From positions 3,534,001 to 3,598,000 of the forward strand of contig NZ_CP019646.1 of assembly GCF_001999965.1 (NCBI RefSeq): DNA of 64,000 nt, read 5' to 3'. Below, one piece after another: positions 25,150 to 42,045 of the stretch (the first letter of the stretch is position 1; every line of letters starts with the position of its first letter). The notes under the pieces are model-generated. The model had not been told where the DNA came from. It did no database searches and saw only the letters and a list, made by a program, of their open reading frames with translations. The position numbers and the translations under genes are program-made. The stretch is from Limihaloglobus sulfuriphilus (GTDB lineage Bacteria; Planctomycetota; Phycisphaerae; Sedimentisphaerales; Sedimentisphaeraceae).

Positions 25150-25165
25150 TGGCACGGCGATTGCA
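25150..25165 (+). promoter_or_regulatory. Sigma-54 (-24/-12) promoter
   Basis: TGGCACG, four bases (GCGA), then TTGCA matches the RpoN consensus exactly, with GG and GC at the required spacing. It lies 67 bases before the pseudo-receiver ATG at 25232. It also argues against the longer frame that would start at 25145, inside the promoter. Confidence 0.75.
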
Positions 25166-25231
25166 ACTATATCAGGCACAAAGGCAAAAAGAATTAAAAA
25201 GGCAATAACGGATTTTAAAAGGAAACTAACA

Positions 25232-25639
25232 ATGGATAACGTTCTGGTAACAGGCATAGAAAAGACAAAGAGCGATGCTCTCCGCGAGCTGCCGATTCGG
25301 GTGATAGCCCAGTCAAGCAGCAAGGGCGCTCTTGATTGTCTCCGCAGGCTGAATATCGATTCGATAATAAGCAACTGGGAGATGCCTGATGCACCGGACG
25401 GCCACTTCATCAAGCGTATTAAAGACGCCCTTCCTTCAATGCCGGTAATTGCTGTTGTTGAATCCGGTAACGCTGCACAGGAGATCGCGGCTCGGTGCAC
25501 CGGTGTCTCGGCTGTTATAACCGACGATATAGAACCGGATGAGTTCCGTGAGCTGATTGCCGAAATGCTCGGCATCGGAATAGAAGCGGTAAGCAATAAT
25601 TACAAATTGATACTTGGGTCGGCAGAGCCGACTTCGTAA
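25232..25639 (+). CDS. Receiver-like (pseudo-REC) domain protein, 135 aa
   Basis: A stand-alone alpha/beta domain resembling response-regulator receivers: an N-terminal strand NVLVTGIEKT, a middle strand and loop SIISNWEMPDAPDGHFIKRI and a late strand MPVIAVVESG. The acidic pair normally after strand 1 is absent, and the phosphoacceptor Asp position appears to be Asn (SNWEMP), so phosphorylation is unlikely. It ends without a DNA-binding domain. The ATG at 25232 follows AGGAAA. A sigma-54 promoter and dyad array lie upstream; the hairpin array and PEP-CTERM genes lie downstream, so it may be a regulatory adaptor for that region. That role is inference. Confidence 0.6.
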   Translation: MDNVLVTGIEKTKSDALRELPIRVIAQSSSKGALDCLRRLNIDSIISNWEMPDAPDGHFIKRIKDALPSMPVIAVVESGNAAQEIAARCTGVSAVITDDIEPDEFRELIAEMLGIGIEAVSNNYKLILGSAEPTS

Positions 25640-25643
25640 AGAA

Positions 25644-27011: not shown

Positions 27012-27407
27012 ATGAAGAGGCAAATAATTCTAGCAATGACATTAGTTCTGGCTGCAAGCACATTTGCAGGTAACGGAATCAGGCTGGCGGACTGGAACGC
27101 AGGAGTCCAGGAAAGCCACAGGCTTATGGAAGTAGGCGAGTACATCCCAAGCGTAACCGAAAAAGAGGATATGACAATCAGTTATGTACGGGTTTACAAG
27201 TGCGACTACGAGGAAGAACTTAACCTCAAGGAAGACCTCGTAAGCACAACACTGTTTGAAACAGCAAGTGCACCGGATCTCGGTTCCAGCACCACAGCAG
27301 TAAACGAGCCGGTAGTAGATGGAAATTACACTCAGGTTCCCGAACCTGCCACAATGGCCCTGCTGGGTCTTGGCGGAGTTCTCCTGAGACGCCGCAAAAG
27401 GAGTTAA
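27012..27407 (+). CDS. PEP-CTERM protein 1, 131 aa
   Basis: An exported surface protein expected to be processed by an exosortase. A signal peptide covers residues 1-19 (MKRQIILAMTLVLAASTFA). The mature part is short and rich in Glu/Asp, with no recognised domain. The PEP-CTERM sorting tail covers residues about 109-131: the VPEPATM motif, a hydrophobic stretch (ALLGLGGVLL) and a basic end RRRKRS. The ATG at 27012 follows AAAGGA; the open frame upstream (from 26931) is Lys-rich and is not a signal peptide. First of thirteen such genes in a row. No exosortase gene is in this window. Confidence 0.85.
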   Translation: MKRQIILAMTLVLAASTFAGNGIRLADWNAGVQESHRLMEVGEYIPSVTEKEDMTISYVRVYKCDYEEELNLKEDLVSTTLFETASAPDLGSSTTAVNEPVVDGNYTQVPEPATMALLGLGGVLLRRRKRS

Positions 27408-27426
27408 CACGGTAGAAGGAATCCCC

Positions 27427-27457
27427 CGGGCCGGTTTCAACAAGACTGGCCGGCCCG
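27427..27457. other. GC-rich hairpin after PEP-CTERM gene 1
   Basis: CGGGCCGG at 27427-27434 pairs perfectly with CCGGCCCG at 27450-27457. There is no T run, so its use as a terminator is uncertain. Between it and 27845 the DNA holds small hairpins, including a GCTGGAAGC-type dispersed repeat near 27740, and no gene. Confidence 0.6.
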
Positions 27458-27844
27458 AGAGTTCCTCGCCACTCCGGCAACCCCCACCGCTCAAACCGAG
27501 CAATTATAAGCTAAACTAACGAACCCGTTCTTTACGACAAGTGAATAGCGTCTCTTCCCGGTAAGACAAAAGAATAAGAGATGGCAAAGTTTGTATAGAT
27601 GTTGATGATATGCTTAAATTTGCCTTTTAAATCCTTTCTTTTGCCTTGCAGGGTGGTCGCCTGAGGTTTATCCACCGCAGGCACCCCCTGTAATTTTGCT
27701 CTAAAGTAGTGCAAGCGTCCCCGCTTGTCAGTGTCAGGCTGGAAGCCTAACCTACTAAATGTCAACCGAGGACGGTTGACCTACGTGAGCGGCAAAAGAA
27801 ACAGAGACACTGTAACGGGAATTACAGATGTCCATACAAAGGAT

Positions 27845-28527
27845 AAAAAGGCTGATTGTAAGCCGGGATAAGAGATAATTAAAACAGCGGTTGGGAAACC
27901 GCTTTCAAATGGGAATAAAACGGGAAAGCTCTATGGCTTATCAAGCCTGGGCATATGTCGGACTTCAATGTACCTTCTGATTGCATTGGGAAAAAGAGAT
28001 AAGATTCATCAACCGTTCCGGGCTCGGGAAAGTCCGGGACGGGTTAGAATCTTAAAAGATTGTTTTTGAAAAGTGAATACTGTACTTCTCTGATAGAAAA
28101 GAACAGACGATTGTGTAAAACGCCTGAGGTATCGGGAAATACCATCGGGCGGCGATAGTACCGGATGAAGAAAAGCCGGTAATGTTTGAAAAAGTATATG
28201 CTGTGCTCTTCTGATTAGCAGCAGGGAAAAAGAGATTAGATTCTAATCCGGCCCGGGTTCGGGAAAATGCGGGCCGGTAACGAATCTCAAAATTAAAATT
28301 GAATAAACTTTAGATTCAGCTGATCATTCTGGATCAGAGAACGGCTTATGCCGCACGGCTTTTCGGGTGTTGAAAAGCAGGGAAGGCTTTTTAATAAAGG
28401 CGGCATAAAAAACTGTTCTTAAAGTTACGTGAGTGCAATAAATGGGTGTTCACAACTTTGATCGTCGCAGGGGTAAAACTATGCGGCTAAAAAAGAGCTG
28501 CCTGTTTATGCGGGCAGCTCTTTTTTT
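27845..28527 (+). ncRNA. Candidate large structured RNA with tandem modules
   Basis: There is no frame of 60 codons or more on either strand between about 27770 and 28890. The stretch contains at least three similar modules: 27850-27903, 27966-28054 and 28200-28287. Each has a first hairpin with GATT in the loop, then a G/A-rich linker (GGGAAAAAGAGATAAGATT-like), then a second hairpin. Stems differ in sequence but keep pairing: CAATG/CATTG against GCTG/CAGC in hairpin 1, and TAAGATTC/GAATCTTA against AGATTC/GAATCT closing hairpin 2. The second-hairpin loops share CGGGAAA. A nine-base stem, TTATGCCGC (28346) / GCGGCATAA (28400), and several nested hairpins follow, and a strong terminator ends the stretch. 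No known RNA family was recognised. The 5' end is a guess. Confidence 0.5.
28489..28527 (+). terminator. Intrinsic terminator ending the structured region
   Basis: GAGCTGCC pairs with GGCAGCTC, flanked by A6 upstream and T7 downstream. It reads as a terminator on both strands. Confidence 0.92.
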
Positions 28528-28591
28528 AATTACGAATTACGAATTACGAAAATCCGCAGATTATCGCAGATTTTAAAAAGTTAAGATTTAT

Positions 28592-28647
28592 GTAGGACAG
28601 GCATCCCTGCCTGTCGCTATTGTGTCGGCCAGGGATGGCCGACCTAC
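28592..28647. repeat. Dispersed GTAGG...CCTAC double-hairpin repeat
   Basis: GTAGG and CCTAC enclose two hairpins, GACAGGC/GCCTGTC and GTCGGCC/GGCCGAC. Copies also lie at 29811-29866, 32131-32186 and 37587-37641. In the last one the second stem is GTCGGGCT/AGCCCGAC, a paired change. A GAGAAAATTC palindrome follows at 28666-28687. The remainder of 28528-28889 has ATTACGA tandem repeats, a CCGCAGATT repeat and a GCAGC/GCTGC hairpin just before the next gene. Confidence 0.85.
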
Positions 28648-28889
28648 GCAGAATAAAGATTTGTAGAGAAAATTCACGAATTTTCTCAGATTTAGATAAA
28701 GCTCTTTGATAAGTTAAAAATTGAAAAGTTAAAGATAATTACCTTGGTAAATTTTCTGAATGTGATGAAAAGTACAGATGAAAATCGGTTCAGAGATTTA
28801 TCAAACGACTGCCGGCGGATGCAGCGTGTTGCTGCGTTTTTATAAACAGCCGGATGTCGCGATAAATTTATTTCACGGAGGATTGAAAA

Positions 28890-29723
28890 ATGAAAACTAA
28901 ATTAAGTGTAATTGTAATGGCTCTGGCGATTGTTTCGTCTCAGTGCTCAGCTATTGTCGTTGACGGCAGAGCAGATGGCAGGGCAGAGGGTTATAACTTT
29001 CAGGCATTTATCCCTTCTGTAGCCGCTGCTCCGGCAAATGTCTTTGCGGAGATGTATATCGGCCAGCAGGGAAGCAGCCTGTACCTGGCGTTTGTGATAC
29101 CTTTGAACTATACAGACAACACGTATGGCGCCAATACTGACCCAAGCTGGCCCCAGGGCAAAGGGCACCTGTTTAATGACCTGATCCAATCCGACCAGAT
29201 GGTTCTGATGGGAGATTTCAACGGCCAGTCAATTGATACGACGATTGACTATCTCGAAGAAAAAGAGCTTGGCGTTGGAACGGATATCTACGAGGCTCCG
29301 ATCATAGAGAACAGCGGTAACGAAGTTGCCGGTTTTGTAGTCGAGGCAGCCACCTCGCTTGAGTACAACCTCGAAGAGATACTCCAGCTTACAGAGCCGC
29401 TGCCGGTGATTGAAGGAAAGCCTAATAGCTCGGATCAGCCGGACTCGCCGTCAGACCCGGCCTCAATAGGCTGGATAATGCGAAACGTCTATGAGATGCG
29501 GATTGAGCTCGGCTCAGATGAGCTCGTGATCGACGAGTATGAGGGATTTATAAACGGCCTCTCCCTGTATGTCGGCGAGCTTCACGCTTCCCCGTCGAAA
29601 GACGCTTCAGACTGGAACAACCAGCCGCCAAACGATGGTTGGGTGCCGCTGAATCCGGTACCGGAACCGGCAACGGCTATAATCTTCGCTATCGGCGGTT
29701 TGCTGATACGTAGGAAGAATTAG
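28890..29723 (+). CDS. PEP-CTERM protein 2, 277 aa
   Basis: A signal peptide of about 22 residues (MKTKLSVIVMALAIVSSQCS) is followed by a roughly 230-residue body (VVDGRADGRAEGYNF..., YLAFVIPLNYTDNTYG) and a PEP-CTERM tail at residues about 257-277: VPEPATAIIFAIGG then RRKN. The body has the look of a beta-rich extracellular domain of the carbohydrate-binding type, but no family is claimed. The ribosome-binding site CACGGAGG lies nine bases before the ATG. The 3' end is nearly identical in DNA to those of the next two genes. Confidence 0.85.
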   Translation: MKTKLSVIVMALAIVSSQCSAIVVDGRADGRAEGYNFQAFIPSVAAAPANVFAEMYIGQQGSSLYLAFVIPLNYTDNTYGANTDPSWPQGKGHLFNDLIQSDQMVLMGDFNGQSIDTTIDYLEEKELGVGTDIYEAPIIENSGNEVAGFVVEAATSLEYNLEEILQLTEPLPVIEGKPNSSDQPDSPSDPASIGWIMRNVYEMRIELGSDELVIDEYEGFINGLSLYVGELHASPSKDASDWNNQPPNDGWVPLNPVPEPATAIIFAIGGLLIRRKN

Positions 29724-30030
29724 GAATTACGAATTACGAATTGAAAAATAAGAAATAAGATAATCCGCAGATTACGCAGATTACCGCAGATTTTAAAAGT
29801 TAAGATTTATGTAGGACAGGCATCCCTGCCTGTCGCCTTTGTGTCGGCCAGGCATGGCCGACCTACGAAGAATAACGAATTGTAGAGAAAATTCACGAAT
29901 TTTCTCAGATTGAAAATTAAATAAACCAGAATTAATTTACCATGAAGAGCATGAAGGACATTAAGTAAATAAGAATTAAAAACTTCAATACCTTCAATAA
30001 CTTCATGGTTAAGAAATTAAAAAGTAAACA
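29724..30030. repeat. Repeat-filled spacer between PEP-CTERM genes 2 and 3
   Basis: In order it holds ATTACGA tandem repeats (29729-29750), CCGCAGATT repeats (29764-29790), the GTAGG double hairpin (29811-29866), a GAGAAAATTC palindrome (29885-29906) and the ACCATGAAG/CTTCATGGT repeat (29939-30008). There is no gene. Confidence 0.85.
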
Positions 30031-30109
30031 AGTTTTTCACGGTGATGGGATTGCCGATGAAAAGGTGAATTTTAACAATCGAGCATAAGCTCATAATAGG
30101 GAAATTTTT
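30031..30109 (+). promoter_or_regulatory. Conserved leader, copy 1
   Basis: CACGGTGATGGGATTGCCG with complementary outer arms (TTTTC / GAAAA) is followed by AATTTTAACAA, a small hairpin (GAGC / GCTC) and the ribosome-binding site. Copies 2 and 3 precede the genes at 32564 and 36450. Here GG and GC are ten bases apart, which also fits a weak -24/-12 promoter. Confidence 0.6.
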
Positions 30110-30790
30110 ATGAAAAAGGCATTACTTGTATTGACAGCATTGACAGTTTGTTCACTGAACGCGGCTTTAATCACTCAGACGAAGACGTTTTCAGGTAAAC
30201 CGAATTATACTAAATATCTGACTTATGACCAGTTTGATGATGACGATGGAACTCTAAACTCTATTGAAGTCATTTTCACCCTCAACGTTGATGGTGGAAT
30301 ATTGACTGTAGATAATGACAGCGATAATCATGCAGATGGAACTTTTGAGTTTGGAGCCAAAGGGGTTATTAATTCTGAAGATGTTATTCTATCTTCTGGT
30401 TTTGTACATGTAACAGGTGAGCTCGAATCTGTAAACTCTGGTAGCTTTTCTTTGGAAGCCAACGAAGGAGATGGCACTGGAGATTATAGTTCGGCTGCAC
30501 CCGATGGCATGAGTTATGACGGAGAGGCTGCAACAGATTCCGGTTCGGGCTTGGTTGCAGTTGGTGCATGGTCAATGGGGACAACCGGTTACCTGGGCAC
30601 ATCAACTTACGATATAGAGGTTGACATAACACAATGGCAGGATTACGAAGGTGATGGTGGGATTGAGCTGGGCTTTACTCCGGTTGACGCAGACGGTGAA
30701 GTAACTGTTAAATACGACTACACTGTACCCGAGCCGGCAACAGCAATAATCTTCGCTATCGGCGGTATGCTGATACGCAGGAAGAATTAA
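30110..30790 (+). CDS. PEP-CTERM protein 3, 226 aa
   Basis: A signal peptide (MKKALLVLTALTVCSLNAA) leads a body that looks like the spectrin-like choice-of-anchor domains of PEP-CTERM proteins: LITQTKTFSGKPNYTKYLTY, then QFDDDDGTLNSIEVIFTLNV. The body is acidic and Gly-rich. The sorting tail lies at residues about 206-226 (VPEPATAIIFAIGG, RRKN). GGGAAATT precedes the ATG at the end of the conserved leader. It is surface-exposed or released into the matrix after exosortase processing; binding partners are unknown. Confidence 0.85.
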   Translation: MKKALLVLTALTVCSLNAALITQTKTFSGKPNYTKYLTYDQFDDDDGTLNSIEVIFTLNVDGGILTVDNDSDNHADGTFEFGAKGVINSEDVILSSGFVHVTGELESVNSGSFSLEANEGDGTGDYSSAAPDGMSYDGEAATDSGSGLVAVGAWSMGTTGYLGTSTYDIEVDITQWQDYEGDGGIELGFTPVDADGEVTVKYDYTVPEPATAIIFAIGGMLIRRKN

Positions 30791-31108
30791 GAATTGTAGA
30801 GAAAATTCACGAATTTTCTAAATTAAAAAGTAAATAGACGGGTAATCCTGTCAAAAAGAATTTAAATATGAGATTTATCTCCGTGATCTCCGTGTCCTCC
30901 GTGGTAAAAAAAGTTAAACCACAGAGTACACAGAGGGCACTGAGAAAAAAAAGAACAAACTTTTACCATGAAGAGCATGAAGGACATGAAGTAAATAAGA
31001 ATTAAAAACTTCATTAACTTAATGGTTGAGAATTAAGAATTTAACGAATCAGCGAAAATCTGCGAAATCTGCGGATATAAAAAGTTAAGAGTTTAAACAA
31101 CTAAACAA
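30791..31108. repeat. Repeat-filled spacer between PEP-CTERM genes 3 and 4
   Basis: It contains a GAGAAAATTC palindrome (30799-30820, last pair broken), the CTCCGTG...CACAGAG repeat (about 30880-30945), the ACCATGAAG/CTTCATGGT repeat (about 30963-31027) and a GCGAAAATCTGCG repeat. There is no gene and no clear promoter. Confidence 0.8.
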
Positions 31109-32029
31109 ATGAATAGACAAACAATGATTAAGAAATTGAATACATTCACAGTTTTGCTAACTGTTCTGGCCTGCGGGTATGCCTTCGGGGCACCCTATGT
31201 TGATGAAGCCTTCACGGGAACAACCGCACCTGACTGGACTTTTGTAACCGGCCAGGGCGACGGGCCCTTCCTTACAGCCACCGACACCGCAAAAACCGGC
31301 GACACTGACGGCGATGGCTGGCTGCGGCTTACAAAAGACCTGGACAATCAATCGTCCTTTGTCTATTACAACAACGCCATCTCAACAAGCCAGGGCATGA
31401 TTTTCACGTTTGACTTTGTTATCTGGGGCGGCAGCTCCGGTTTGGGAGACGGTCTCACGCTGGCTATTTTTGACGCAGACGTTACAGCTGATGCCGGCGG
31501 ATACGGCGGGTCTCTGGGGTATGCCCAGCGAGATGGAGGAATTGACGGGCTCGCCGGAGCGGTTGCGGGTTTTGGTTTTGACGTATTCGGCAACTTTTCC
31601 AACCCGACCGAAGGCCGCGAAGGAGGCCCCGGACAGCGGCCCGATGCAATCGCAGTAAGGGGCTCTATGGGTGATACCCGCAGCGACGGCTACGAGTATG
31701 TGACAGGTACCGATACTTTAGAGGATTTTGCTACATCAAGCGCTAATTCAAGAGACGATGCAGTTATACATACAGTTAAGATAACGATCACAACAGATAA
31801 AGAACTTACAATTGAATGGAAGCCCGAAAATGACGAGTGGGCGACGCTTATAGATGCGTACCAGTGTACTTTGGACTGCCCGGATCAGGTTAAGTTCGGA
31901 TACACCGCGGGTACGGGAAGTGCGACTGCAAACCATGAGATCAGAAACCTCTCGGTTACCGCAGTCCCGGAACCGGCAACGGCGATAATCTTCGCTATCG
32001 GCGGTATGCTGATACGCAGGAAGAAATAA
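31109..32029 (+). CDS. PEP-CTERM protein 4 with L-type lectin-like domain, 306 aa
   Basis: A signal peptide runs to about residue 28 (MIKKLNTFTVLLTVLACGYAFG). Residues about 30-280 resemble a concanavalin A/L-type lectin fold: WLRLTKD, FTFDFVIWGGSSGLGDGLTLAIFD at about 95-118, GLAGAVAGFGFDVFGN and KLTIEW-like late strands. Such domains bind carbohydrate and suggest an adhesin or glycan-binding role. The PEP-CTERM tail is at residues about 286-306 (VPEPATAIIFAIGG, RRKK). The start could also be the ATG five codons downstream (31124), which gives a more usual signal peptide. Confidence 0.85.
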   Translation: MNRQTMIKKLNTFTVLLTVLACGYAFGAPYVDEAFTGTTAPDWTFVTGQGDGPFLTATDTAKTGDTDGDGWLRLTKDLDNQSSFVYYNNAISTSQGMIFTFDFVIWGGSSGLGDGLTLAIFDADVTADAGGYGGSLGYAQRDGGIDGLAGAVAGFGFDVFGNFSNPTEGREGGPGQRPDAIAVRGSMGDTRSDGYEYVTGTDTLEDFATSSANSRDDAVIHTVKITITTDKELTIEWKPENDEWATLIDAYQCTLDCPDQVKFGYTAGTGSATANHEIRNLSVTAVPEPATAIIFAIGGMLIRRKK

Positions 32030-32477
32030 AAATTACGAATTACGAATTACGAATTACGAATTGAAAAATAAGAAATAAGATAATCCGCAGATTACGCAGA
32101 TTACCGCAGATTTTAAAAGTTAAGATTTATGTAGGACAGGCATCCCTGCCTGTCGCCTTTGTGTCGGCCAGGGATGGCCGACCTACGAAGAATTAAGAAT
32201 TGTAGAGAAAATTCACGAATTTTCTCAGATTGAAAATTAAATAAACCAGAATTAATTTACCATGAAGAGCATGAAGGACATGAAGTAAATAAACTAAAAA
32301 CTTCAATAACTTCAATAACTTCATGGTTGAGAATTAAGAATTTAAAAAATCCGCGAAAATCTGCGTAATCTGCGGATATAAAAAGTAAATAGTTATCTTA
32401 CAGGCACGGCCGGCGGCAGAGCAGCAGAAAACTAATGCCTATTGCCTATTGCCTAATGCCTGTAAAAAAAGTAAATA
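32030..32477. repeat. Repeat-filled spacer between PEP-CTERM genes 4 and 5
   Basis: The same series as after gene 2: ATTACGA tandem repeats (32031-32060), CCGCAGATT repeats, the GTAGG double hairpin (32131-32186), a GAGAAAATTC palindrome (32205-32226) and the ACCATGAAG repeat (about 32260-32327). Then come a TGCCTATTGCC short tandem repeat (about 32435-32460) and the leader. From the end of the PEP tail to about 32300 it is almost identical to 29700-30000. Confidence 0.85.
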
Positions 32478-32563
32478 AGTTTTCCACGGTGAATGGGATT
32501 GCCGCGGAAAAGGGAAAATTTTAACAAATGGGCAAACGGCCCAAAATTCGAAAGGATTTTATT
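32478..32563 (+). promoter_or_regulatory. Conserved leader, copy 2
   Basis: TTTTCC / GGAAAA arms enclose CACGGTGAATGGGATTGCCG. AATTTTAACAA and a second hairpin, GGGC / GCCC, follow, then GAAAGGA. The second stem differs from copy 1 (GAGC/GCTC) and copy 3 (CGGGC/GCCCG) with pairing kept. Confidence 0.6.
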
Positions 32564-33109
32564 ATGAAAAAGACACTCACAGCACTTACAATTTTATTAG
32601 CCGTATCAGCGGCACAAGCGGGGTTTCTGTACTGGAGCTTTACAGGCCCGGACGGAGGCGGAGACTACACGGTTGACCTTAACTGGGATACCACAGCACC
32701 GGCCGAGTGGGATTATGTAGAGTACTCAGCATTAAACGATAATCTTACGGAATTTGCCATAAAAATTTCAACTGAAAGCAGTGGTGTCACTCTGAGTAAT
32801 TTTGTTTTTGGGGATTTCGATACAACATGGGCAGTAAATTGGGACGGTGAAAAAACGTCTTTTGGCACGGCGTTAGATGCAAACGGTGTAAATGGTATGC
32901 TGATCCAGTTTAAATACACTGGTCCTGATAATGTTACTCTTAACGTAGAAGGTATTGATACTACCGGAAGTGCTATTGCAGATTCTGATGAAAACATAGT
33001 TTACTTTGGCAATTCTGCCGCAGGCAGCGTTGTAGTCCCCGAGCCGGCAACGATGGTTATCTTTGGCCTTGGCGGGCTTGTGCTGAATGTAACAAGACGC
33101 AAAGCGTAA
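32564..33109 (+). CDS. PEP-CTERM protein 5, 181 aa
   Basis: A signal peptide (MKKTLTALTILLAVSAAQA) precedes a compact body of about 130 residues (YWSFTGPDGGGDYTVDLNWD, AEWDYVEYSALNDNLTEFAI) of beta character, with no named family recognised. The tail at residues about 158-181 is of the second type in this array: PEPATMVIFGLGG, then LVLNVTRRKA, with Asn-Val-Thr before the basic end. The ATG at 32564 follows GAAAGGA. An in-frame ATG at 32528 lies in the leader hairpin and is rejected. Confidence 0.85.
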   Translation: MKKTLTALTILLAVSAAQAGFLYWSFTGPDGGGDYTVDLNWDTTAPAEWDYVEYSALNDNLTEFAIKISTESSGVTLSNFVFGDFDTTWAVNWDGEKTSFGTALDANGVNGMLIQFKYTGPDNVTLNVEGIDTTGSAIADSDENIVYFGNSAAGSVVVPEPATMVIFGLGGLVLNVTRRKA

Positions 33110-33483
33110 TCAATTACGAATTACGAGTTACGAATTGAAATGCAAATAACCCGTCACTTGTTTCACTTTTCTAATATTTAGAAAAACAAGTGACGGGTAA
33201 TCCTGTCAAAAAGAATTTAAATATGAGATTTATCTCCGTGATCTCCGTGTCCTCCGTGGTAAAAAAAAGTTAAACCACAGAGTACACAGAGGGCACTGAG
33301 AAAAAAAGAACAAACTTTTACCATGAAGAGCATGAAGGGCATGAAGTAAATAAAATAAAAACTTCAATATCTTCAATATCTTCAATATCTTCATGGTTGA
33401 AATTAGAAACTAAGAATTACGAATTGAAATACAAAGAGACAAAATTTTATTTAATTTCAAGAAAGGAAAGTGAGCTAACCAGG
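33110..33483. repeat. Repeat-filled spacer between PEP-CTERM genes 5 and 6
   Basis: It holds ATTACGA repeats (33112-33135), a long hairpin at 33149-33198 (arms ACCCGTCACTTGTTT and matching complement), the CTCCGTG/CACAGAG repeat (about 33228-33300) and the ACCATGAAG/CTTCATGGT repeat (about 33320-33395). The CCCGTCACTTGT hairpin recurs at 39622-39671 and 40032-40079. Confidence 0.85.
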
Positions 33484-34152
33484 ATGAAAATGAATTTAAC
33501 GACAATGTGTTTAGCAGTAGTAATAGCAATCTGTTCGGCAGCGCTGGCAAACCCCGATTATACAATCACCCTTACCGCAATGGCAGATGGCAGCGGTTTG
33601 GGTTATAATTCAGGTTCTACTTATGATTTTTCTTTCGTTCTAAATGGTTCGAGAACAGAGTCGAATAATGATACCTTTGATGATACGTACAACTCGTGGT
33701 TTTCAGCAAATACAAGTGATGACCCTTTATATCTCGACATTTATGGTTCAGGCTTATCAGGAACTTACCAAAGGCCAAATGGCGCTTCTAACGATCCGCA
33801 AGAAAATGTTATTGTTAACAGTAATGGCCTCGATATAAGTGTAAATGCATATGAAACTGATGACTTAAATCTAACCACGCTTGATGGCAACAACATTGAT
33901 CCCATTATTACTGATTACTTTTTGTTATCCGGAGTAACATTAGATTATTCAGACACCTCTTACGTATCTCCCGAAACGTACTTTGCTGATTACCTTGGGC
34001 AGTATAGCGTTTCCGGCAGCCCAACTCTAACGTTGATGACCACAGGACCGGATGCATATTTTGATATCAATTCTGTAACCATCACCCCCGAGCCGGCAAC
34101 GGCGATAATCTTCGGCCTTGGCGGACTCTTTATCCGCCGCAGACGAACATAA
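33484..34152 (+). CDS. PEP-CTERM protein 6, 222 aa
   Basis: A signal peptide (MNLTTMCLAVVIAICSAALA) is followed by NPDYTITLTAMADGSGLGYN and a Ser/Asn/Asp-rich body of unknown fold. The tail at residues about 202-222 reads PEPATAIIFGLGG, ending RRRRT. The ATG at 33484 has an AGG directly in front and AAAGGAAA further upstream. The longer frame from 33397 only translates repeat sequence. Its N-terminal 20 residues resemble those of gene 8 (MKMNVITICLAVATML), so the pair shares both ends but not the middle. Confidence 0.85.
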   Translation: MKMNLTTMCLAVVIAICSAALANPDYTITLTAMADGSGLGYNSGSTYDFSFVLNGSRTESNNDTFDDTYNSWFSANTSDDPLYLDIYGSGLSGTYQRPNGASNDPQENVIVNSNGLDISVNAYETDDLNLTTLDGNNIDPIITDYFLLSGVTLDYSDTSYVSPETYFADYLGQYSVSGSPTLTLMTTGPDAYFDINSVTITPEPATAIIFGLGGLFIRRRRT

Positions 34153-34183
34153 AACTTAAAACTTTTTTACAAGGAGAACAAAA

Positions 34184-35071
34184 ATGATGTATTATTTAAG
34201 GAATTTGATGTGTTTGTCTGTGCTAATCGCTTTGCTTCTTGCAGCCCCCGCCTTCAGTGCGTACACGTTCGAAGGCAGCAATGCAATGAAAGACTGGGAC
34301 GGAGATAATGAGACTAGTCCTTATGCAATAGATGATTGGTCTGATGTTGACTCAGACGACGAATTGCAGATTGGATACAACAGCTGGGGCAAACTTACCG
34401 GCGACGGCGGTTCTGGAACGGTTTATAATACTAATGTAGGCAATAACGGCGAGGGTGAAATGGTTCTTGCTGGAAGCAGTACAGATTTTACAAACACTAA
34501 CATTTTTGCCGTGGGTAAGTTTGATAGCGGAGAGTTATCTGTCTCAAACGGAGCGTCTCTTAGCGTTACTGAGGGCTTGCAGGTAGGATATCAGTCTCAG
34601 GGAATTATGACCGTTCACGGCGGAGACGTGTTGGCTGGAAGAATTCGTATGAATGATTCTTTCAATGCTGAAGGCAGCAGCCTTACAATCACAGGCAGCG
34701 GTACTGTATCAGCATCTGCGATTTATCATGATAACAATTCCTCCTCTATGACCATAGAAGACGGAATAGTTGATGCAGAAAATATCTATGCCTATGGAGG
34801 GACATTTGCAATTAACGTAGGCCTTTCCGGGACTTTAGCACTTGGCTGGGGTTTCGAGGATAATATGAGCAGCTTTCTGGTGAATATTACTGCCTTCAAT
34901 GATTCAACCATAAACCTCAATCTCTGGGATGGCTCGGATTATGTAGATTATTCTGCGCTCACTGAAGACGTGGATTATCAGGTAGAAGACGGTGAGCTTA
35001 CAATCGTCCCCGAGCCGGCAACGGCGATAATCTTCGGTCTTGGCGGGCTGATGCTTCGCAGGAAGAAATAG
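34184..35071 (+). CDS. PEP-CTERM protein 7 with autotransporter-like beta repeats, 295 aa
   Basis: The signal peptide (MCLSVLIALLLAAPAFSA) ends near residue 26. The body repeats short Gly/Ser-rich strands (GELSVSNGASLSVTEGLQVGYQSQGIM at about 120-145, SSLTITGSGTVSASAIYHDN), like the stacked beta repeats of autotransporter passenger domains. A PEP-CTERM tail lies at residues about 275-295 (VPEPATAIIFGLGG, RRKK). It starts only 31 bases after gene 6 with an AAGGAG site, so genes 6 and 7 are the one likely two-gene unit in the array. Confidence 0.85.
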   Translation: MMYYLRNLMCLSVLIALLLAAPAFSAYTFEGSNAMKDWDGDNETSPYAIDDWSDVDSDDELQIGYNSWGKLTGDGGSGTVYNTNVGNNGEGEMVLAGSSTDFTNTNIFAVGKFDSGELSVSNGASLSVTEGLQVGYQSQGIMTVHGGDVLAGRIRMNDSFNAEGSSLTITGSGTVSASAIYHDNNSSSMTIEDGIVDAENIYAYGGTFAINVGLSGTLALGWGFEDNMSSFLVNITAFNDSTINLNLWDGSDYVDYSALTEDVDYQVEDGELTIVPEPATAIIFGLGGLMLRRKK

Positions 35072-35322
35072 AAATTACGAATTACGAATTACGAATTGAA
35101 AAAATAAGAAATAAGATAATCCGCAGATTACGCAGATCATCGCAGATTTAAAAACTAAATAAACCAGAATTCATTTACCATGAAGAGCATGAAGGACATG
35201 AAGTAAATAAAATAAAAACTTCAATAACTTCATGGTAGAAATTAGGAATTAGGAATTAAGAATTGAAATACAAAGAGACAAAATTTTTATTAAATTTCAA
35301 CAAAGAAAGAGAGCAAACAAAG
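35072..35322. repeat. Repeat-filled spacer between PEP-CTERM genes 7 and 8
   Basis: ATTACGA tandem repeats, CCGCAGATT repeats and the ACCATGAAG/CTTCATGGT repeat (35178-35236) occur in this order. The first 140 bases match the spacer after gene 8 almost base for base. Confidence 0.8.
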
Positions 35323-36108
35323 ATGAAAATGAATGTAATTACAATATGCTTGGCAGTAGCAACGATGTTAACGGGTGTATGCGTCGCCGCGAATACTTCC
35401 ATAGATTTTGAAGGTGCTGCTGTTGGTACCAACAACGCGGCAGACCAGATTGGCGGGCGTTTAACAACCTGGGGTAACAATCCCGGGGGCACTTACGATG
35501 CAAACATTGCTGATGACCCTGCAGCGGGCAGTTCAGGCGAGACTATGTATCTGGCCAATCAGGATGATATGTTACTTTATCTTGGTTCTTTAACGAATAT
35601 ACAAGAGATTGATTGGACTACAGCCGCGACAACCGCTACCGGCACAGTTAATATCAGCTATGATATATATGCAGGAAATGGATATGCCTATTGGAATGTA
35701 CAATCATCAAACTTAAACTCTAACGATTGGTCTATTGAAATTGAATACGGTAAGGACGGAACTGGTAATACAAATAAGAGCGGTATCTATTATTATATTG
35801 GTGATATTAATAATTATACAGAATCTGAAAATGTTGTCTTTAATCAATGGGTTACTGTTGAGCAGGTTTTGAATATTGATGATGGAACATACACCATGAA
35901 ACTTGATGACGTCGAGGTTCTCTCTTTAGGTTCAAGCGATGGTTTCACCTATTATGACGGTCTCCTGGGGATAGATTTTTATGGTTACGATGCTGACAGT
36001 GATTACTATGTGGACAACATCGCTTTCAATTTAGAAACCACGGTTCCAGAGCCAATGACAATGGCGTTTCTCGGCCTTGGCGGACTGATGCTTCGCAGGA
36101 AGAAATAA
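35323..36108 (+). CDS. PEP-CTERM protein 8, 261 aa
   Basis: A signal peptide (MKMNVITICLAVATMLTGVCVA) is followed by a roughly 215-residue body with a LamG/concanavalin-like flavour (IDFEGAAVGT, WSIEIEYGKDG, NQWVTVEQVLNIDDGTYTMK, then YVDNIAF). The tail (about 241-261) is VPEPMTMAFLGLGG, RRKK, with Met for the usual Ala. The ATG at 35323 is used because the signal peptide begins there; the frame upstream of it is Lys-rich repeat translation. It would be exported and processed like its neighbours. Confidence 0.85.
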   Translation: MKMNVITICLAVATMLTGVCVAANTSIDFEGAAVGTNNAADQIGGRLTTWGNNPGGTYDANIADDPAAGSSGETMYLANQDDMLLYLGSLTNIQEIDWTTAATTATGTVNISYDIYAGNGYAYWNVQSSNLNSNDWSIEIEYGKDGTGNTNKSGIYYYIGDINNYTESENVVFNQWVTVEQVLNIDDGTYTMKLDDVEVLSLGSSDGFTYYDGLLGIDFYGYDADSDYYVDNIAFNLETTVPEPMTMAFLGLGGLMLRRKK

Positions 36109-36360
36109 AAATTACGAATTACGAATTACGAATTGAAAAAATAAGAAATAAGATAATCCGCAGATTACGCAGATCATCGCAGATTTAAAAACTAAATAAA
36201 CCAGAATTCATTTACCATGAAGAGCATGAAGGACATGAAGTAAATAAAATAAAAAAACTTCAATAACTTCAATATCTTCATGGTTGAGAATTAGGAATTT
36301 AACGAATCCGCGAAAATCTGCGAAATCTGCGGATTAAAAAAAGTAAATAACGTATAAAGT
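36109..36360. repeat. Repeat-filled spacer between PEP-CTERM genes 8 and 9
   Basis: It repeats the spacer seen after gene 7 (ATTACGA, CCGCAGATT, ACCATGAAG/CTTCATGGT at 36215-36283), then adds a GCGAAAATCTGCG repeat before the leader. Confidence 0.8.
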
Positions 36361-36449
36361 AAGTTTTCCACGGTGAATGGGATTGCCGCGGAAAAGGGAA
36401 AATTTAACAAGCGGGCGAAACAAGCCCGGAATTCGAAAGGAATTTAATT
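36361..36449 (+). promoter_or_regulatory. Conserved leader, copy 3
   Basis: It is nearly identical to copy 2 in the first hairpin (TTTTCC / GGAAAA around CACGGTGAATGGGATTGCCG). The second hairpin is CGGGC / GCCCG, followed by GAAAGGA and the ATG at 36450. Confidence 0.6.
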
Positions 36450-37121
36450 ATGAAAAAAACAAACATACTATTACTGATTTTTGCTGCCCTGGCGGCGGTT
36501 AGTGTCAACGCTGCTTTGATCACAGAGCAGAATTTTGACGATGCGGGATGGGATTTTACCGCGGTACCGGATGAGAGTATCGGCCATGAAGAAATTTCAG
36601 GATTTTTCTTCATGAATTGGGGCGTTACGGATCTTGTACCTATAGATTCTGATGCCACTAATACCTTAACCGCCGCAGATGACAGTGATTTCTGGGGTAT
36701 AAGGAAACTTGCAGATTATGCAGAATATACCGCTGGGGTAACAGTAAATCCTACCGATTTCTATTTAGAGTTTGACAGTGTGGATATCAGCGCATACACA
36801 GGTGTTGAGATTACATTTGACTATGCAATAGCAGAAGATTACGCGGACGGATATATGGCTTATCAGGTAAGCCTTGACGGCGGTCAGACTTGGGAAAACG
36901 CTGTAGAAGTATCTATTGCAACCGGTGCCTGGACAACGGAAACAATATCAATCGCAGACAGCGTTGATGATGTAGCCTTGCGGCTAATCTCTGATGATAC
37001 TCTCAGCTATCCCGGTGCTGCCGGCTGGGACAATGTAGAGCTGATCCCCGAGCCTGCAACGATGGTAATCTTCGGCCTTGGCGGACTGATTCTAAGTGCT
37101 ACAAGACGCAGAAATGCTTAA
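36450..37121 (+). CDS. PEP-CTERM protein 9, 223 aa
   Basis: A signal peptide (MKKTNILLLIFAALAAVSVNA) precedes a jelly-roll-like body: LITEQNFDDAGWDFTAVPDE, YLEFDSVDISAYTGVEITFD, AYQVSLDGGQTWENAVEVS and GAAGWDNVELI. This resembles a MAM-like or choice-of-anchor carbohydrate-binding domain. The tail at residues about 199-223 is IPEPATMVIFGLGG, then SATRRRNA. GAAAGGA precedes the ATG. It is expressed from the conserved leader, like genes 3 and 5. Confidence 0.85.
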   Translation: MKKTNILLLIFAALAAVSVNAALITEQNFDDAGWDFTAVPDESIGHEEISGFFFMNWGVTDLVPIDSDATNTLTAADDSDFWGIRKLADYAEYTAGVTVNPTDFYLEFDSVDISAYTGVEITFDYAIAEDYADGYMAYQVSLDGGQTWENAVEVSIATGAWTTETISIADSVDDVALRLISDDTLSYPGAAGWDNVELIPEPATMVIFGLGGLILSATRRRNA

Positions 37122-37181
37122 TCAATTACGAATTACGAATTAGGGATTACGAATATAACAACTATGAGCGAAGCGAAGTTC

Positions 37182-37223
37182 TTCGTCACTTGTTGGCAAA
37201 GCCAAAAAAGAACAAGTGACGAA
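37182..37223. repeat. Variant CGTCACTTGTT hairpin
   Basis: TTCGTCACTTGTT pairs with AACAAGTGACGAA across a 16-base loop. It is a relative of the CCCGTCACTTGT hairpins at 33149, 39622 and 40032, but with a different loop and outer bases. Confidence 0.75.
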
Positions 37224-37265
37224 TGCCGCAATTCTTAATTCTACATTCCTAATTCCTAATTAATT

Positions 37266-37496
37266 ATAAAATAACGATCTGCCTGCGGTTTGAACCGCCG
37301 CGACAAAAAGCCTCACTAAGCAGCATTTGGGCAATGTATTTAAAGCTGGTGATAAGCTGCGGCGGGATTTGAGCCCCGGCAGACGCTCTTGTGAAAGTAA
37401 GTCCTTATGGGCTTAAAAGAAGTATTACGTAAGAAGCCTTGAGGGGCTGGTTTTAAAGCCTCTCTGGTTTTCTTGCATGTCAGAAAGAAACGTTAG
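37266..37496 (+). ncRNA. Duplicated 231-nt structured element, copy A
   Basis: Copy B is at 40104-40335; only about three positions differ in 231. Nested pairings are possible: TCTGCC/GGCAGA outermost, CCGCCGC/GCGGCGG within, and GCAGC/GCTGC inside that. AAGTCC/GGGCTT follows, and a terminator-like stem GAGGGGCT/AGCCTCTC leads to TGGTTTTCTT. No frame of useful length is present. A regulatory RNA, a riboswitch-like leader or a mobile repeat are all possible. The stretch 37497-37742 holds one palindrome, one GTAGG repeat and no gene. Confidence 0.5.
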
Positions 37497-37742
37497 CGGT
37501 AACTATACTGAAATCTGACAAGAAGAATATTAAGAATTGTAGAGTAAATTCACGAATTTTCTCAGATTGAAAAAGTTAAGATTTATGTAGGACAGGCATC
37601 CCTGCCTGTCGCCTTTGTGTCGGGCTGGAAGCCCGACCTACGAAGAACAAAAAGTTTAAAATTAAGAATTTAACAAATCCGCGAAAATCAGCGCAATCTG
37701 CGGATATAAAAACTAAACAAGAACTACAAGAAAGAGATTGAT

Positions 37743-38789
37743 TTGAGAACACGAATAAGCAGCAGACTCTCTAAAGCGGCTATTGTAATGCTGGTATTTT
37801 CCGCCGGCGCATTTGCCGTGGATATTGTTAATTACGGCCCGTTTGCGTGCCATTTTTATAACCAGAACGATGATGGCGGCTACGGTTATGTCGGAGCGGC
37901 GGACTGGACGGATACCCAGAAACAGGACGTTGAGGCGGGCATAATGACCTGGGCCTCGAACATTGCTAATACCGCTCCGCGTCAGTTAAACCTGCATATT
38001 TACTGGCAGAACCTTGAAGGTGCACAACTCGGCGGTGCCGGCAGCAGCGTTTATTATAACGGCACGTACAGTGCCAGCATGACCGAATATGTCTGGCGCC
38101 ATGAGAATAATTATACAATCAGCGGGCCTGACGCTCTGATTGTATACGATATTGACGCGGCTTCAGATTACAAACCGGAGGACCAACCTGATTATGTCTC
38201 GCCGATTGCCGGCTGGAATTTCGGCTCTGAGCAGCCTGCGGATGACGAGATAGATTTTCGGGGCACAGTTACCCATGAACTTGGTCATTTAGTGGGCTTT
38301 TCATCTTCTTATAATCTGAATCTTAACCAGTTTGGAACCGCTGGTGACAGTGAAAGCTGGCAGCAGCGGGGGCTTAGCGCCTGGGATTTGAATTTTGTTG
38401 ACGACGACGGCGAAAGGCCGCAGGTAGCTGTAAGCTGGGACGAGCAGACCAATGTAGATGTTCAGGCCGACGAAGGAGATTCTACGAGCCTCTACTGGGA
38501 CGGAGAGAATGCGGTTGCCGCAAACGATGGTGAGCTTGTTCAGATATTCGCCCCGACTGAATATCTCCCCGGCTCGAGCCTTTCGCACCTGAACTATGAC
38601 GCCGGATCAGTGTATCCGGGCAGCCTGATGAGTCCATATGTAAGTACAGGGATCTCGCCTCGCGAGCCTAACGAAATCGAATGGGCAATGATGGCAGATA
38701 TGGGCTGGACAATAGTCCCCGAGCCGGCGACGATGATAATTCTGGGTATTGGCGGGCTTGTGCTGAATGTAACAAGACGCAGAGCTTAA
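37743..38789 (+). CDS. PEP-CTERM protein 10, zinc metalloprotease-like, 348 aa
   Basis: A secreted, surface-sorted zincin. The signal peptide runs to about residue 27 (AAIVMLVFSAGAFA). The body has YGPFACHFYNQNDDGG, an ADWTDTQKQDVEAGI helix and the zinc motif THELGHLVGFS, with His178, Glu179 and His182. A third ligand is expected shortly downstream. The PEP-CTERM tail lies at residues about 325-348 (VPEPATMIILGIGG, NVTRRRA). The start is TTG at 37743 after a GAAAGAGATTGA leader; no ATG fits the signal peptide. It is the only array member with a recognisable catalytic motif. Confidence 0.85.
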   Translation: MRTRISSRLSKAAIVMLVFSAGAFAVDIVNYGPFACHFYNQNDDGGYGYVGAADWTDTQKQDVEAGIMTWASNIANTAPRQLNLHIYWQNLEGAQLGGAGSSVYYNGTYSASMTEYVWRHENNYTISGPDALIVYDIDAASDYKPEDQPDYVSPIAGWNFGSEQPADDEIDFRGTVTHELGHLVGFSSSYNLNLNQFGTAGDSESWQQRGLSAWDLNFVDDDGERPQVAVSWDEQTNVDVQADEGDSTSLYWDGENAVAANDGELVQIFAPTEYLPGSSLSHLNYDAGSVYPGSLMSPYVSTGISPREPNEIEWAMMADMGWTIVPEPATMIILGIGGLVLNVTRRRA

Positions 38790-39005
38790 TCAATTACGAA
38801 TTACGAATTGAAATGCAAATAGACATGATTAACAAGATAAACAAGATTTTAATAAATAAAAACTAATCCTGTAAATCCTGTCCGCTAAAATTAAGAATAA
38901 TAAGCAGGGCAAGCTTCCAGCTTGCCATTACCAAATATCAGGCAGGATGCCTGACATGCGAAAACCAGAAAATGTAAACAGAAACTATTTGAAGGAAAAC
39001 GACCT
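38790..39005. repeat. Short spacer between PEP-CTERM genes 10 and 11
   Basis: It contains ATTACGA repeats, an ATTAACAAGATAAACAAGAT repeat and a GGCAAGC/GCTTGCC hairpin (about 38908-38926), then GAAGGAAAAC before the next ATG. Confidence 0.7.
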
Positions 39006-39572
39006 ATGAGAAAAACACTTTTTATCGCAGTGGCAATTTTAATCGCGGCAGCAACGGCGCAATCTGCGGTAGTATGCTCCAACATAGACAATACTACTGA
39101 CGTCTGGGCTAACACTTGGGGATTTACGGTAACTCAGCAGTTCACGGTTGATTCCAACCCGGAAACAATCAAAACTGTTAGAGTTGCATTTGATATCCAT
39201 GGCACAGCGGCATCTTTCTCTTCCGAGGGCGGAACCTTGTCTATTTATGCTAATGACCGTTCAACAAAGCTCGGTGATTTTACAACAGGTGACACTATTT
39301 ACAACGGGACGAACGAATTTGTCAACAATTCCGGTGTTGCTCTATCAGCAAATACAAGTTACTGGGTATTTGTTTCAGGTTTTTACGCAGGTGTTGACTT
39401 AACAAACAACGCCTCACAGGCTGGCTGGGCGATCAGAGACAAGATAGACTACTCGTCAGACCCTTTCCTCGGTGCAATGAAGATTGAGCTGGACACCGTT
39501 CCTGAGCCGGCGACGATGCTTATCCTGGGTCTTGGCGGGCTTGTGCTGAATGTAACAAGACGCAGAGCTTAA
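39006..39572 (+). CDS. PEP-CTERM protein 11, choice-of-anchor R-like, 188 aa
   Basis: A signal peptide (MRKTLFIAVAILIAAATAQS) precedes a body of about 140 residues with CSNIDNTTDVWANTWGFTVT, QQFTVDSNPETIKTVRV, LSIYANDRSTKLGDF and LSANTSYWVFVSG. This is the pattern of the choice-of-anchor R domain found in PEP-CTERM proteins. The tail at residues about 165-188 is VPEPATMLILGLGG followed by NVTRRRA, almost identical in DNA to that of gene 10. GAAGGAAAAC lies just before the start. Confidence 0.85.
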   Translation: MRKTLFIAVAILIAAATAQSAVVCSNIDNTTDVWANTWGFTVTQQFTVDSNPETIKTVRVAFDIHGTAASFSSEGGTLSIYANDRSTKLGDFTTGDTIYNGTNEFVNNSGVALSANTSYWVFVSGFYAGVDLTNNASQAGWAIRDKIDYSSDPFLGAMKIELDTVPEPATMLILGLGGLVLNVTRRRA

Positions 39573-40103
39573 TCAATTACGAATTAGGAATTACGAATTG
39601 AAATACAAATAGACATGATTAACCCGTCACTTGTTTCACTTTTCTAATATTTAGAAAAACAAGTGACGGGTAATCCTGTCAAAAAAAATTAGTAATTAAG
39701 AATTGTAGAGAAAATTCACGAATTTTCTAAATTAAAAAGTAAATAGACCCGATTGACAAGATAAGAATATTTGAGATTTGAAATTTTAGATTACAAATTT
39801 AATCCTGTAAATCCTGTCAAAAAGAATTAAATTTGAGATTTATCTCTGTGATCTCCGTGTCCTCCGTGGTAAAAAAAGTTAAACCACAGAGTACACAGAG
39901 GGCACTGAGAAAAAAAGAACAAACTTTTACCATGAAGAGCATGAAGGGCATGAAGTAAATAAAATAAAAACTTCAATAACTTCATGGTTGGAAATTAGAA
40001 ATTAAGAATTACGAATTTAAAATACAAATAGCCCGTCACTTGTTTCACTTTTCTAATATTTAGAAAAACAAGTGACGGGTAATCCTGTCCAATAGATTTG
40101 AAA
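39573..40103. repeat. Repeat-filled spacer after PEP-CTERM gene 11
   Basis: Order: ATTACGA repeats, the CCCGTCACTTGT hairpin (39622-39671), a GAGAAAATTC palindrome (39708-39729), the CTCCGTG/CACAGAG repeat (about 39838-39910), the ACCATGAAG/CTTCATGGT repeat (about 39929-39988) and a second CCCGTCACTTGT hairpin (40032-40079). There is no gene. Confidence 0.85.
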
Positions 40104-40335
40104 ATAAAATAACGATCTGCCTGCGGTTTGAACCGCCGCGACAAAAGGCCTCACTAAGCAGCATTTGGGCAATGTATTTAAAGCTGGTGATAAGCTGCGG
40201 CGGGATTTTGAGCCCCGGCAGACGCTCTTGTGAAAGTAAGTCCTTATGGGCTTAAAAGAAGTATTACGTAAGAAGCCTTGAGGGGCTGGTTTTAAAGCCC
40301 CTCTGGTTTTCTTGCATGTCAGAAAGAAACGTTAG
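40104..40335 (+). ncRNA. Duplicated structured element, copy B
   Basis: It is the near-identical partner of 37266-37496. In this copy the terminal stem is perfect (GAGGGGCT/AGCCCCTC), whereas copy A has one G-T pair there. The following 40336-40643 carries no gene and ends in the promoter of PEP-CTERM gene 12. Confidence 0.5.
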
Positions 40336-40567
40336 TGTAAACGCTCTTTTTGAAAGAAGTTTAAAACTGAATATAGTTAGCGGAACAGATACAGTTCTGC
40401 CGTTTTCGCCTCCGCGGCGGCTTTGACTCTTTTGCTCGCGGGCGATAACGGGTGTTTTGTGCGTGCGCATTGTGTTTAAACGCTGCGGGTTCCGTTGCGT
40501 GTGATACGCGTATGTCTCTGCCTAAACTGTTGTCTGTACTGTTTTTGTAAAAATAAAAAATATTTTA

Positions 40568-40596
40568 TTGTAATGTGACATCATAATGTTTATGAT
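40568..40596 (+). promoter_or_regulatory. Sigma-70-type promoter with internal palindrome, upstream of PEP-CTERM gene 12
   Basis: TTGTAA at 40568 and TATGAT at 40591 are 17 bases apart. The spacer and -10 region contain ATCATAA-TGT-TTATGAT, a perfect inverted repeat that could be an operator. Confidence 0.6.
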
Positions 40597-40643
40597 GATA
40601 CATAAGAGATTGTAAAAGTTTTTTCGAAAGGAAAAGTGAGAAA

Positions 40644-41228
40644 ATGAGAAATTTATTGATTGTGTTGATTATTGTCTGCCTTACTATCAGCGCGGGCGCG
40701 GGGTTAATCCTTAACGGTTCATTTGAAGCTCCAGTTATAGCAAATAACAGCTTTACGCAGTTTGATGAAGGTGAAACTATTGATGACGCGGGCGAATGGC
40801 TGGTAATCTCGGGTGAGGTTGACCTTGTAAGACAGGGAACCATTCACGATGGATCCCAGCGGCTCAGCCTCAACGGCTTAAATCTTGGCGGCAAGATAGG
40901 CCAGGAGATAGCAACCGTTGAAAACCAAATCTACAAAGTAACCTACTGGTCTTTGGACAGAGACTACGCTTTCACAGTTGGCGTTGCTGAAACTTCCGAC
41001 GGCAACTATACCGAATTCGAAAATGTTGATGTTACCTCATCCAGTGACTGGACTTACAAAGAATTTGAGTTTACCGCTACCGGTGCTGCGACCTGGGTGA
41101 TTTTTGAAAGCAATGTCAGCGGCGATACAGGTGCCGGCATAGACCTGGTTGATGTAGAGCTGGTTCCCGAGCCGGCAACGATGCTGATATTTGCTCTTGG
41201 CGGCCTTCTGCTTCGCAGGAAGAAATAA
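40644..41228 (+). CDS. PEP-CTERM protein 12, DUF642/choice-of-anchor C-like, 194 aa
   Basis: A signal peptide (MRNLLIVLIIVCLTISAGAG) is followed by LILNGSFEAPV, the start motif of DUF642-type galactose-binding-like domains, with IYKVTYWSLDRDYAFTVGVA and WVIFESNVSGDTGAGIDLVD near the end of the fold. The tail at residues about 174-194 is VPEPATMLIFALGG, RRKK. GAAAGGAAAAG precedes the ATG. It shares its domain plan with gene 13, which follows in tandem, so these two are true paralogues rather than merely tail-sharing genes. Confidence 0.87.
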   Translation: MRNLLIVLIIVCLTISAGAGLILNGSFEAPVIANNSFTQFDEGETIDDAGEWLVISGEVDLVRQGTIHDGSQRLSLNGLNLGGKIGQEIATVENQIYKVTYWSLDRDYAFTVGVAETSDGNYTEFENVDVTSSSDWTYKEFEFTATGAATWVIFESNVSGDTGAGIDLVDVELVPEPATMLIFALGGLLLRRKK

Positions 41229-41439
41229 GAATTGTAGAGAAAATTCACGAATTTTCTAAATTTAAAAGTAAATAGACAGGATTAACAGGATAAACAAGAT
41301 AAGAATATTTGAGATTTGAAATTTCAGATTGCAGATTTAATCCTGTTAATAAATTTAAACCTTCGTTGAAATGCAGTAAACGCGGGAAAGAGATTGATAT
41401 TGTGCACCGCAGAGGGTTAAAAAAGAGGGAAAAATACTG

Positions 41440-42045
41440 ATGAAAAAAATGGTTTTAATTACAGTTGTGTCCTGTGTGGTTTTGTACGCAAACGCAGGTC
41501 TGATAGTCAACGGCTCATTCGAGGATCCTGACATCAGCGGTGATTACACTGCGGATATAGCCGGACCAATGGGGCCGTGGCAGGTATTGGCAGGAGTTGA
41601 CTTGATCGACGATTACTGGGTTGCCTCAGATCTGGATCAGAGCGTTGACATGAACGCTTCTGGCCCCGGCAAGATTGCCCAGTCTATTGCTACACAGGTT
41701 GGCGGACTTTACAAAGTTACGTTTGATCTGGCGGGTAACCCCGAGCTGGCCCCTGATACCAAGGACCTTCGTCTTGGCGTTGCAGATACGGCTAACGGGG
41801 CATACAATGCTTCTTACGATTTCAGCTTTGATGCGTCAAATACCGATTTTACCAATATGGGCTGGACAGACAAAAGCTGGCAGTTCACTGCAACAAATAC
41901 AACGACATGGATTGTATTTCAGAGCCTGACTACCGGGGCATGCGGGCCGGCAATTGACAATGTCGATGTAAACCTGGTTCCAGAGCCGGCTACGATGCTG
42001 CTTCTGGGCCTTGGCGGTATTCTGCTTCGCAGGAAATTGAGCTAA
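41440..42045 (+). CDS. PEP-CTERM protein 13, DUF642/choice-of-anchor C-like, 201 aa
   Basis: Similar in plan to gene 12: a signal peptide (MKKMVLITVVSCVVLYANAG), LIVNGSFEDPDI, LYKVTFDLAGNPELA, WIVFQSLTTGACGPAIDNVD and the tail VPEPATMLLLGLGG ending RRKLS at residues about 180-201. GAGGGAAAAA precedes the ATG. The 211-base spacer before it (41229-41439) holds one GAGAAAATTC palindrome (41237-41258) and an AACAGGATAAACAAGAT repeat. It is the last gene of the array and is followed by a terminator. Confidence 0.87.
   Translation: MKKMVLITVVSCVVLYANAGLIVNGSFEDPDISGDYTADIAGPMGPWQVLAGVDLIDDYWVASDLDQSVDMNASGPGKIAQSIATQVGGLYKVTFDLAGNPELAPDTKDLRLGVADTANGAYNASYDFSFDASNTDFTNMGWTDKSWQFTATNTTTWIVFQSLTTGACGPAIDNVDVNLVPEPATMLLLGLGGILLRRKLS

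Follow-up and report, generated by a model that had tools for sequence, protein, structure and literature searches.

In Neisseria pilE/pilS and similar systems, a single expressed locus draws on silent, incomplete gene copies, and in Campylobacter fetus the sap gene copies have long homologous ends in common and are expressed from a single invertible promoter. The C. fetus sap (S-layer) locus is repeat-rich and carries multiple copies of surface-protein genes, and sapA/sapB recombinants are reported for it (PMC4943207). For the PEP-CTERM/exosortase (EpsH) system, Haft et al. 2006 give single-gene units behind long upstream or intergenic regions as a general trait (PMC1569441). Both diverse single-gene PEP-CTERM units and recombining surface-protein genes such as sap are already known. 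PEP-CTERM proteins are numerous and extremely diverse and mostly share the tail alone, which raises the question of how unrelated bodies come by the tag. Here we describe an array of 13 same-strand PEP-CTERM open reading frames (g01-g13, 27012-42045, forward strand) in a window of 64,000 nucleotides (nt) of Limihaloglobus sulfuriphilus, which covers positions 3534001-3598000 of a single-contig, 3.87-Mb genome. We consider it probable that the array consists of recombination-prone single-gene surface-protein units and that the DNA of the PEP-CTERM tail, often together with the adjoining spacer, supplies the homology for the exchange of bodies.

The array is flanked by a response regulator gene (25145-25639) on one side and by mnmG (42164-44002, reverse strand) on the other, and no other gene, housekeeping or otherwise, lies between its members. 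All 13 proteins begin with a signal-peptide-like sequence, judged by eye from the translations, and match the C-terminal features of PF07589/TIGR02595, namely the PEP motif, the hydrophobic segment and the basic end; a sequence resembling a ribosome-binding site, likewise assigned by eye, precedes most of the genes. A genome-wide TIGR02595 search with a cut-off of 16 bits yielded 93 matches over the cut-off, including all 13 array genes, although in single-protein scans g02 (16.0 bits) and g03 (15.6 bits) were marginal. Because the remaining 80 matches are scattered through the rest of the genome, approximately 0.3 would be expected per 15 kb, and 13 PEP-CTERM genes in 15 kb are a strong cluster. 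The genome encodes one exosortase (PF09721, E 7e-57), located at genome positions 2947900-2948682. Homology between bodies was detectable in only one of the 78 pairs, g12/g13, which are both DUF642 proteins and are 36.7% identical in amino acids (aa). A preliminary description had claimed an uninterrupted, co-oriented run of 13 PEP-CTERM genes with differing bodies, and both claims are borne out, the second by the 77 pairs without detectable homology.

Evidence for exchange comes from g07 (34184-35071, forward strand, 295 aa), a T5SS/PEP-CTERM-repeat protein by a match below cut-off, in which a foreign-type body is joined to a local tail. A member of the same family but of another genus, G002, carries an array of eight PEP-CTERM genes at 2.169-2.177 Mb; seven of them end in PEPATMALLGLGGLF[IV]RR[RK]RT and the last in ...RRRRRA, and their tail DNA is nearly identical. 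The g07 body is 96.6% identical in nt to unit B' of this array, with the same base at 113 of 119 four-fold sites (95.0%), whereas mnmG of the same two genomes is only 64.9% identical, with 72 of 203 four-fold sites the same (35.5%). Over the last 20 codons the identity between g07 and B' is only 63% in nt and 60% in aa. The near-identical stretch starts at 34145-34146, within the final codons of g06, and stops at 35023, immediately behind VPEPAT and 17 nt into the g07 tail; past that point, g07 and B' each continue with the tail type of their own array. The exchanged segment (34146-35023, forward strand) thus comprises the last g06 codons, a 31-nt spacer and the g07 body up to VPEPAT, and it is 96% identical to positions 2175666-2176536 of the G002 contig C1. 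This similarity, together with the tail pattern, excludes vertical descent as its source, and contamination is unlikely because the genome is a single contig and g07 is embedded in local tail and spacer. As judged from these alignments, g07 was exchanged recently between the two genera, in one direction or the other, and its two junctions lie within tails.

The gene just before it, g06 (33484-34152, forward strand), has a tail that points the same way. When the halves of this tail were compared separately, the first 38 nt matched local g07 at 37 of 38 positions and G002 at 27-29, whereas the next 40 nt (3' half plus spacer) matched G002 at up to 36 of 40 positions and other local tails at 12-22, which is near background for most of them. 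The g06 tail is therefore a hybrid. Its matches in a DNA search were array members only, and the adjacency of units D2 and B in the G002 array resembles that of g06 and g07.

Within the array, blocks common to non-homologous genes mostly begin at the VPEP codons and continue through the tail into the spacer. Where a repeat block extends into a tail, its start in most cases lies no more than 35 nt from the PEP codons. The tail and spacer of g02 (29658-30031, forward strand) are 91.5% identical to a block at g04 (31964-32348) over 388 columns, and the g05/g11 block reaches 88% over 193 columns. The block shared by g07 and g08 begins at tail position +25, where the 3' half of the g07 tail with its spacer (35034-35250, forward strand) is 92.6% identical to the tail and spacer of g08 (36071-36299) over 229 columns. 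The two halves of one tail can pair with different partner tails. Agreement extends to codon choice: same-codon use in tails was 0.577 within the window array, 0.416 between the array and 43 outside tails and 0.392 among the outside tails, and in the G002 array it was 0.963 versus 0.472. A Mantel correlation of tail halves with body ends was weak; the offset of the g01 tail was wrong, and the result was not used. Taken together, the alignments show tails and spacers that are locally homogenised between unrelated bodies.

The comparison genomes for the array belong to genera other than that of the source. In the G002 array, the units run D1 D2 B A C, a transposase-like open reading frame, A' B' C', and the same units therefore stand in two orders, B-A-C and A'-B'-C'. 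The two copies of the C/C' block (94.6% over 821 nt) follow different genes, A and B', and in each case the block begins 4 nt before the PEP codons of that neighbour; the B/B' block likewise begins in the tails of two different neighbours, D2 and A'. The array is absent from the syntenic site of G004, a congener of G002, where the protein of the flanking gene is 87% identical. In a third genome, G005, contig C21 has seven co-oriented genes similar in style to those of G002 but of weaker identity; their bodies show homology in one of 28 pairs, an eighth gene included, and shared blocks run from the tail through the spacer into the next signal peptide. No such array was found beyond mnmG in the listed parts of 15 relatives, several of whose contigs end early there. 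These comparisons show a rapid turnover of arrays. The gain, loss and reordering of single units suggested by the preliminary description are thus seen in the g07 exchange, the permuted G002 units and the absence in G004, whereas its idea that the run serves as a reservoir of interchangeable surface proteins is conjectural.

The source genome has three copies, ~97-98% identical, of a ~5.3-kb segment that contains two PEP-CTERM genes (L038 1227-6556; L039 6374-11940, reverse strand; L040 2899-7887). One end of the segment is promoter-like and the other resembles an intrinsic terminator, and no transposase was seen inside it. Elsewhere in the window, an IS110-family transposase is encoded at 52442-53611; genome positions 3644418-3645587 (L038) code for a protein that appears identical to it.

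Mechanistically, tail DNA of ~60 nt, often with adjoining spacer, is nearly alike in neighbours and would form islands of homology. A unit would be joined through two crossovers, one in the tail of the gene before it and one in its own, and the incoming body would take on the local tail and so stay addressed to the single exosortase. Bodies could in this way be gained, lost and permuted within and between genomes while the exosortase tag is kept. RecA-type homologous or homology-assisted recombination at tail plus spacer would be the simplest mechanism, with no need for a dedicated enzyme; donor DNA may arrive by transformation or another route, and the outcome would presumably be surface diversification. 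Recombination of this kind would place junctions at varying points within the tail, as is seen. Beyond this, we tentatively suggest that sorting-tag coding sequence might double as a recombination handle, with tail DNA guiding the exchange between genomes of whole PEP-CTERM surface-protein bodies, each already addressed to the exosortase; we hold this wider proposal with less than even confidence.

Several observations weigh against exchange at the tails. Because 60 nt is short for efficient homologous recombination, the spacer may contribute, as may illegitimate joining. Given the D2-B adjacency in G002, the block that was exchanged may span more than g07 and take in g06 or involve an unsampled relative, or a separate conversion may have altered the g06 tail; either way a junction lies in a tail. 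Among 161 genomes of the order, in a search that scored two candidate regions per genome, g07 was the only recent inter-genome exchange with array DNA. Searching in the other direction, with DNA of the G002 array, brought up copies of the transposase region and relatives of A and A' at 67-85% but no further recent exchanges of this array. No g07 relatives were found in a scan of GTDB contigs, which also missed G002, or among IMG/VR viral contigs or plasmids. In two other genomes, G003 and G001, a paralogous array of four genes has kept one gene order and diverged in the ordinary way, and a run on contig C13 of G005 has unrelated tails.

The spacers measure 211-1482 nt, except for the 31 nt between g06 and g07, and are composites of short palindromic repeats in a constant module order, a b c d (l e f) g h i b'. 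The preliminary description was right about this fixed order and, apart from g06-g07, about lengths of 200-1,500 nt. The modules, however, are not particular to the array. One 386-nt array spacer has 85 partial matches genome-wide, many between housekeeping genes, and these matches are dense at 3.04-3.06, 3.16, 3.21-3.28, 3.43 and 3.64 Mb; genes for dihydroorotate dehydrogenase and pseudopilin are among the neighbours of the dispersed copies. The dispersed palindromic repeats in L031, L032, L033 and the window spacers, among them the ATGAAG and GTAGAGAAAATTC modules, mostly point the same way as the genes beside them; of the intergenic copies, 16 of 19 do so for the ATGAAG hairpin and 15 of 21 for module d. 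This gene-following orientation suggests that they act in RNA or are connected with transcription. None of eight of the spacer modules was present in the G002 array when searched there. Because the hairpin repeats are dispersed and flank ordinary genes, they are background, and because the G002 array shuffles its units without them, they are not the exchange sites; a role as specific cassette sites is ruled out.

We think it unlikely that the dispersed palindromic repeats rather than the tails are the substrate, with unequal crossing-over deleting, duplicating and converting units. Spacer blocks do recur in direct orientation between units over 100-388 nt at 80-92% identity and are longer than the tail alone. 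Against this, permuted units and tail-starting blocks occur in G002 without any of the eight modules, both g07 junctions lie in tail codons, and the repeats stand beside ordinary genes in the source genome too. An ordinary tandem gene family, duplicated and diverged with its tails held by purifying selection for sorting, appears less probable still: it would accommodate the tandem paralogues g12/g13 and the conserved order of the arrays in G003 and G001, but 77 of the 78 body pairs lack homology even though identity between noncoding spacers reaches 92% and array tail codons agree at synonymous positions, and the recent g07/B' exchange between genera involved a switch of tails.

The preliminary description also compared the layout to an integron cassette array without a visible integrase. 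Layout and unit-wise behaviour are indeed cassette-like, and no integrase was found: a genome search for IntI (TIGR02249) gave at best 84 bits against a cut-off of 265, with none in the window. The likeness to integrons ends there, since attC-like RYYYAAC/GTTRRRY pairs were found in none of the 12 spacers and the junctions lie inside coding tails, and an integron/attC origin is rejected. A more general version, in which some unrecognised site-specific recombinase acts on tail or spacers, strikes us as very improbable, because no recombinase gene lies in or beside the array and the two junctions of g07 fall at different points within the tail. Exchange at tail and adjoining spacer thus remains our preferred reading.

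The remaining members, all on the forward strand, are varied. PF07589 scores are over cut-off for g01 (27012-27407, 131 aa, 29.2 bits), and were 24.2 bits for g05 (32564-33109, 181 aa), 21.8 for g09 (36450-37121, 223 aa) and 27.4 for g11 (39006-39572, 188 aa); g08 (35323-36108, 261 aa) has 16.7 bits with TIGR02595, and g02 (28890-29723, 277 aa, unknown body) is at the TIGR02595 cut-off by itself and over it in the genome search. Apart from g07, bodies of recognisable type, the rest being of unknown type, are choice-of-anchor E in g03 (30110-30790, 226 aa, NF033208, 36.8 bits), an L-type lectin-like body in g04 (31109-32029, 306 aa, PF18483, E 8e-13, below cut-off), a zincin-like metalloprotease with an HELGH motif in g10 (37743-38789, 348 aa, NF038122, E 5e-10, below cut-off), and PF04862 in the DUF642/CBM-like g12 (40644-41228, 194 aa, 41.1 bits) and its paralogue g13 (41440-42045, 201 aa, 76.4 bits).

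Noncoding sequence has features of its own. Directly 5' of g01, 25641-26894 holds tandem units of 279 and 309 nt, each with a conserved 78-nt core bearing a GGGCC hairpin and without an Rfam match. A 231-nt element occurs twice (37266-37496 and 40104-40335, 98.7% identical), with a GC hairpin followed by TGGTTTTCTT; the only RNA family matched in the spacers by Rfam was tRNA-Gln. The 5' leaders of g03 (30030-30110), g05 (32462-32563) and g09 (36343-36449) are related at 77-86% pairwise, with TTTTCCACGGTGAATGGGATTGCCGCGG common to those of g05 and g09, and shared regulation is possible. For sigma-54 promoter sites of the proteobacterial PEP-CTERM type, the array gave a single weak match, inside g05.

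The g06/g07 junction and the G002 permutations offer a concrete, testable answer to the question of how unrelated bodies acquire the tag, namely exchange of bodies at tail DNA. If general, this would account for PEP-CTERM diversity, and tail junctions would trace surface-gene traffic among biofilm bacteria; if true, sorting-tag families in general could be gene-capture platforms without a dedicated recombinase, the address label being also a plug-in place for new surface genes. In a literature search that covered few subscription papers and judged those on PEP-CTERM that also mention recombination by title and abstract, neither PEP-CTERM paired with gene conversion nor exchange junctions in sorting-tag coding sequence was found.

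With the PEP-CTERM/EpsH system (PMC1569441), the array shares the C-terminal PEP, hydrophobic stretch and basic end, the single-gene units behind long upstream regions, the diverse bodies and the one exosortase; it differs in being a run of unrelated genes with locally homogenised tail DNA and tail-codon junctions, features absent from the passages cited above, and the word 'array' does not occur in that text. Integron cassette arrays likewise consist of co-oriented units of one gene each that can be acquired, dropped or reordered, but neither IntI nor attC was found here, and the junctions lie in homologous coding sequence. The likeness to sap lies in a repeat-rich surface-protein gene locus with recombinants, whereas in the present array most bodies have no relation to one another, every gene carries a start of its own, what is common is a short sorting tag at the 3' end, and exchange crosses genera. 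Conserved sequence beside variable bodies at recombination sites, a feature of sap- and pil-type systems, is found in the tail blocks and at the g07 junctions. As in pilE/pilS, recombination via conserved stretches would renew surface proteins, but in this array the units are complete genes.

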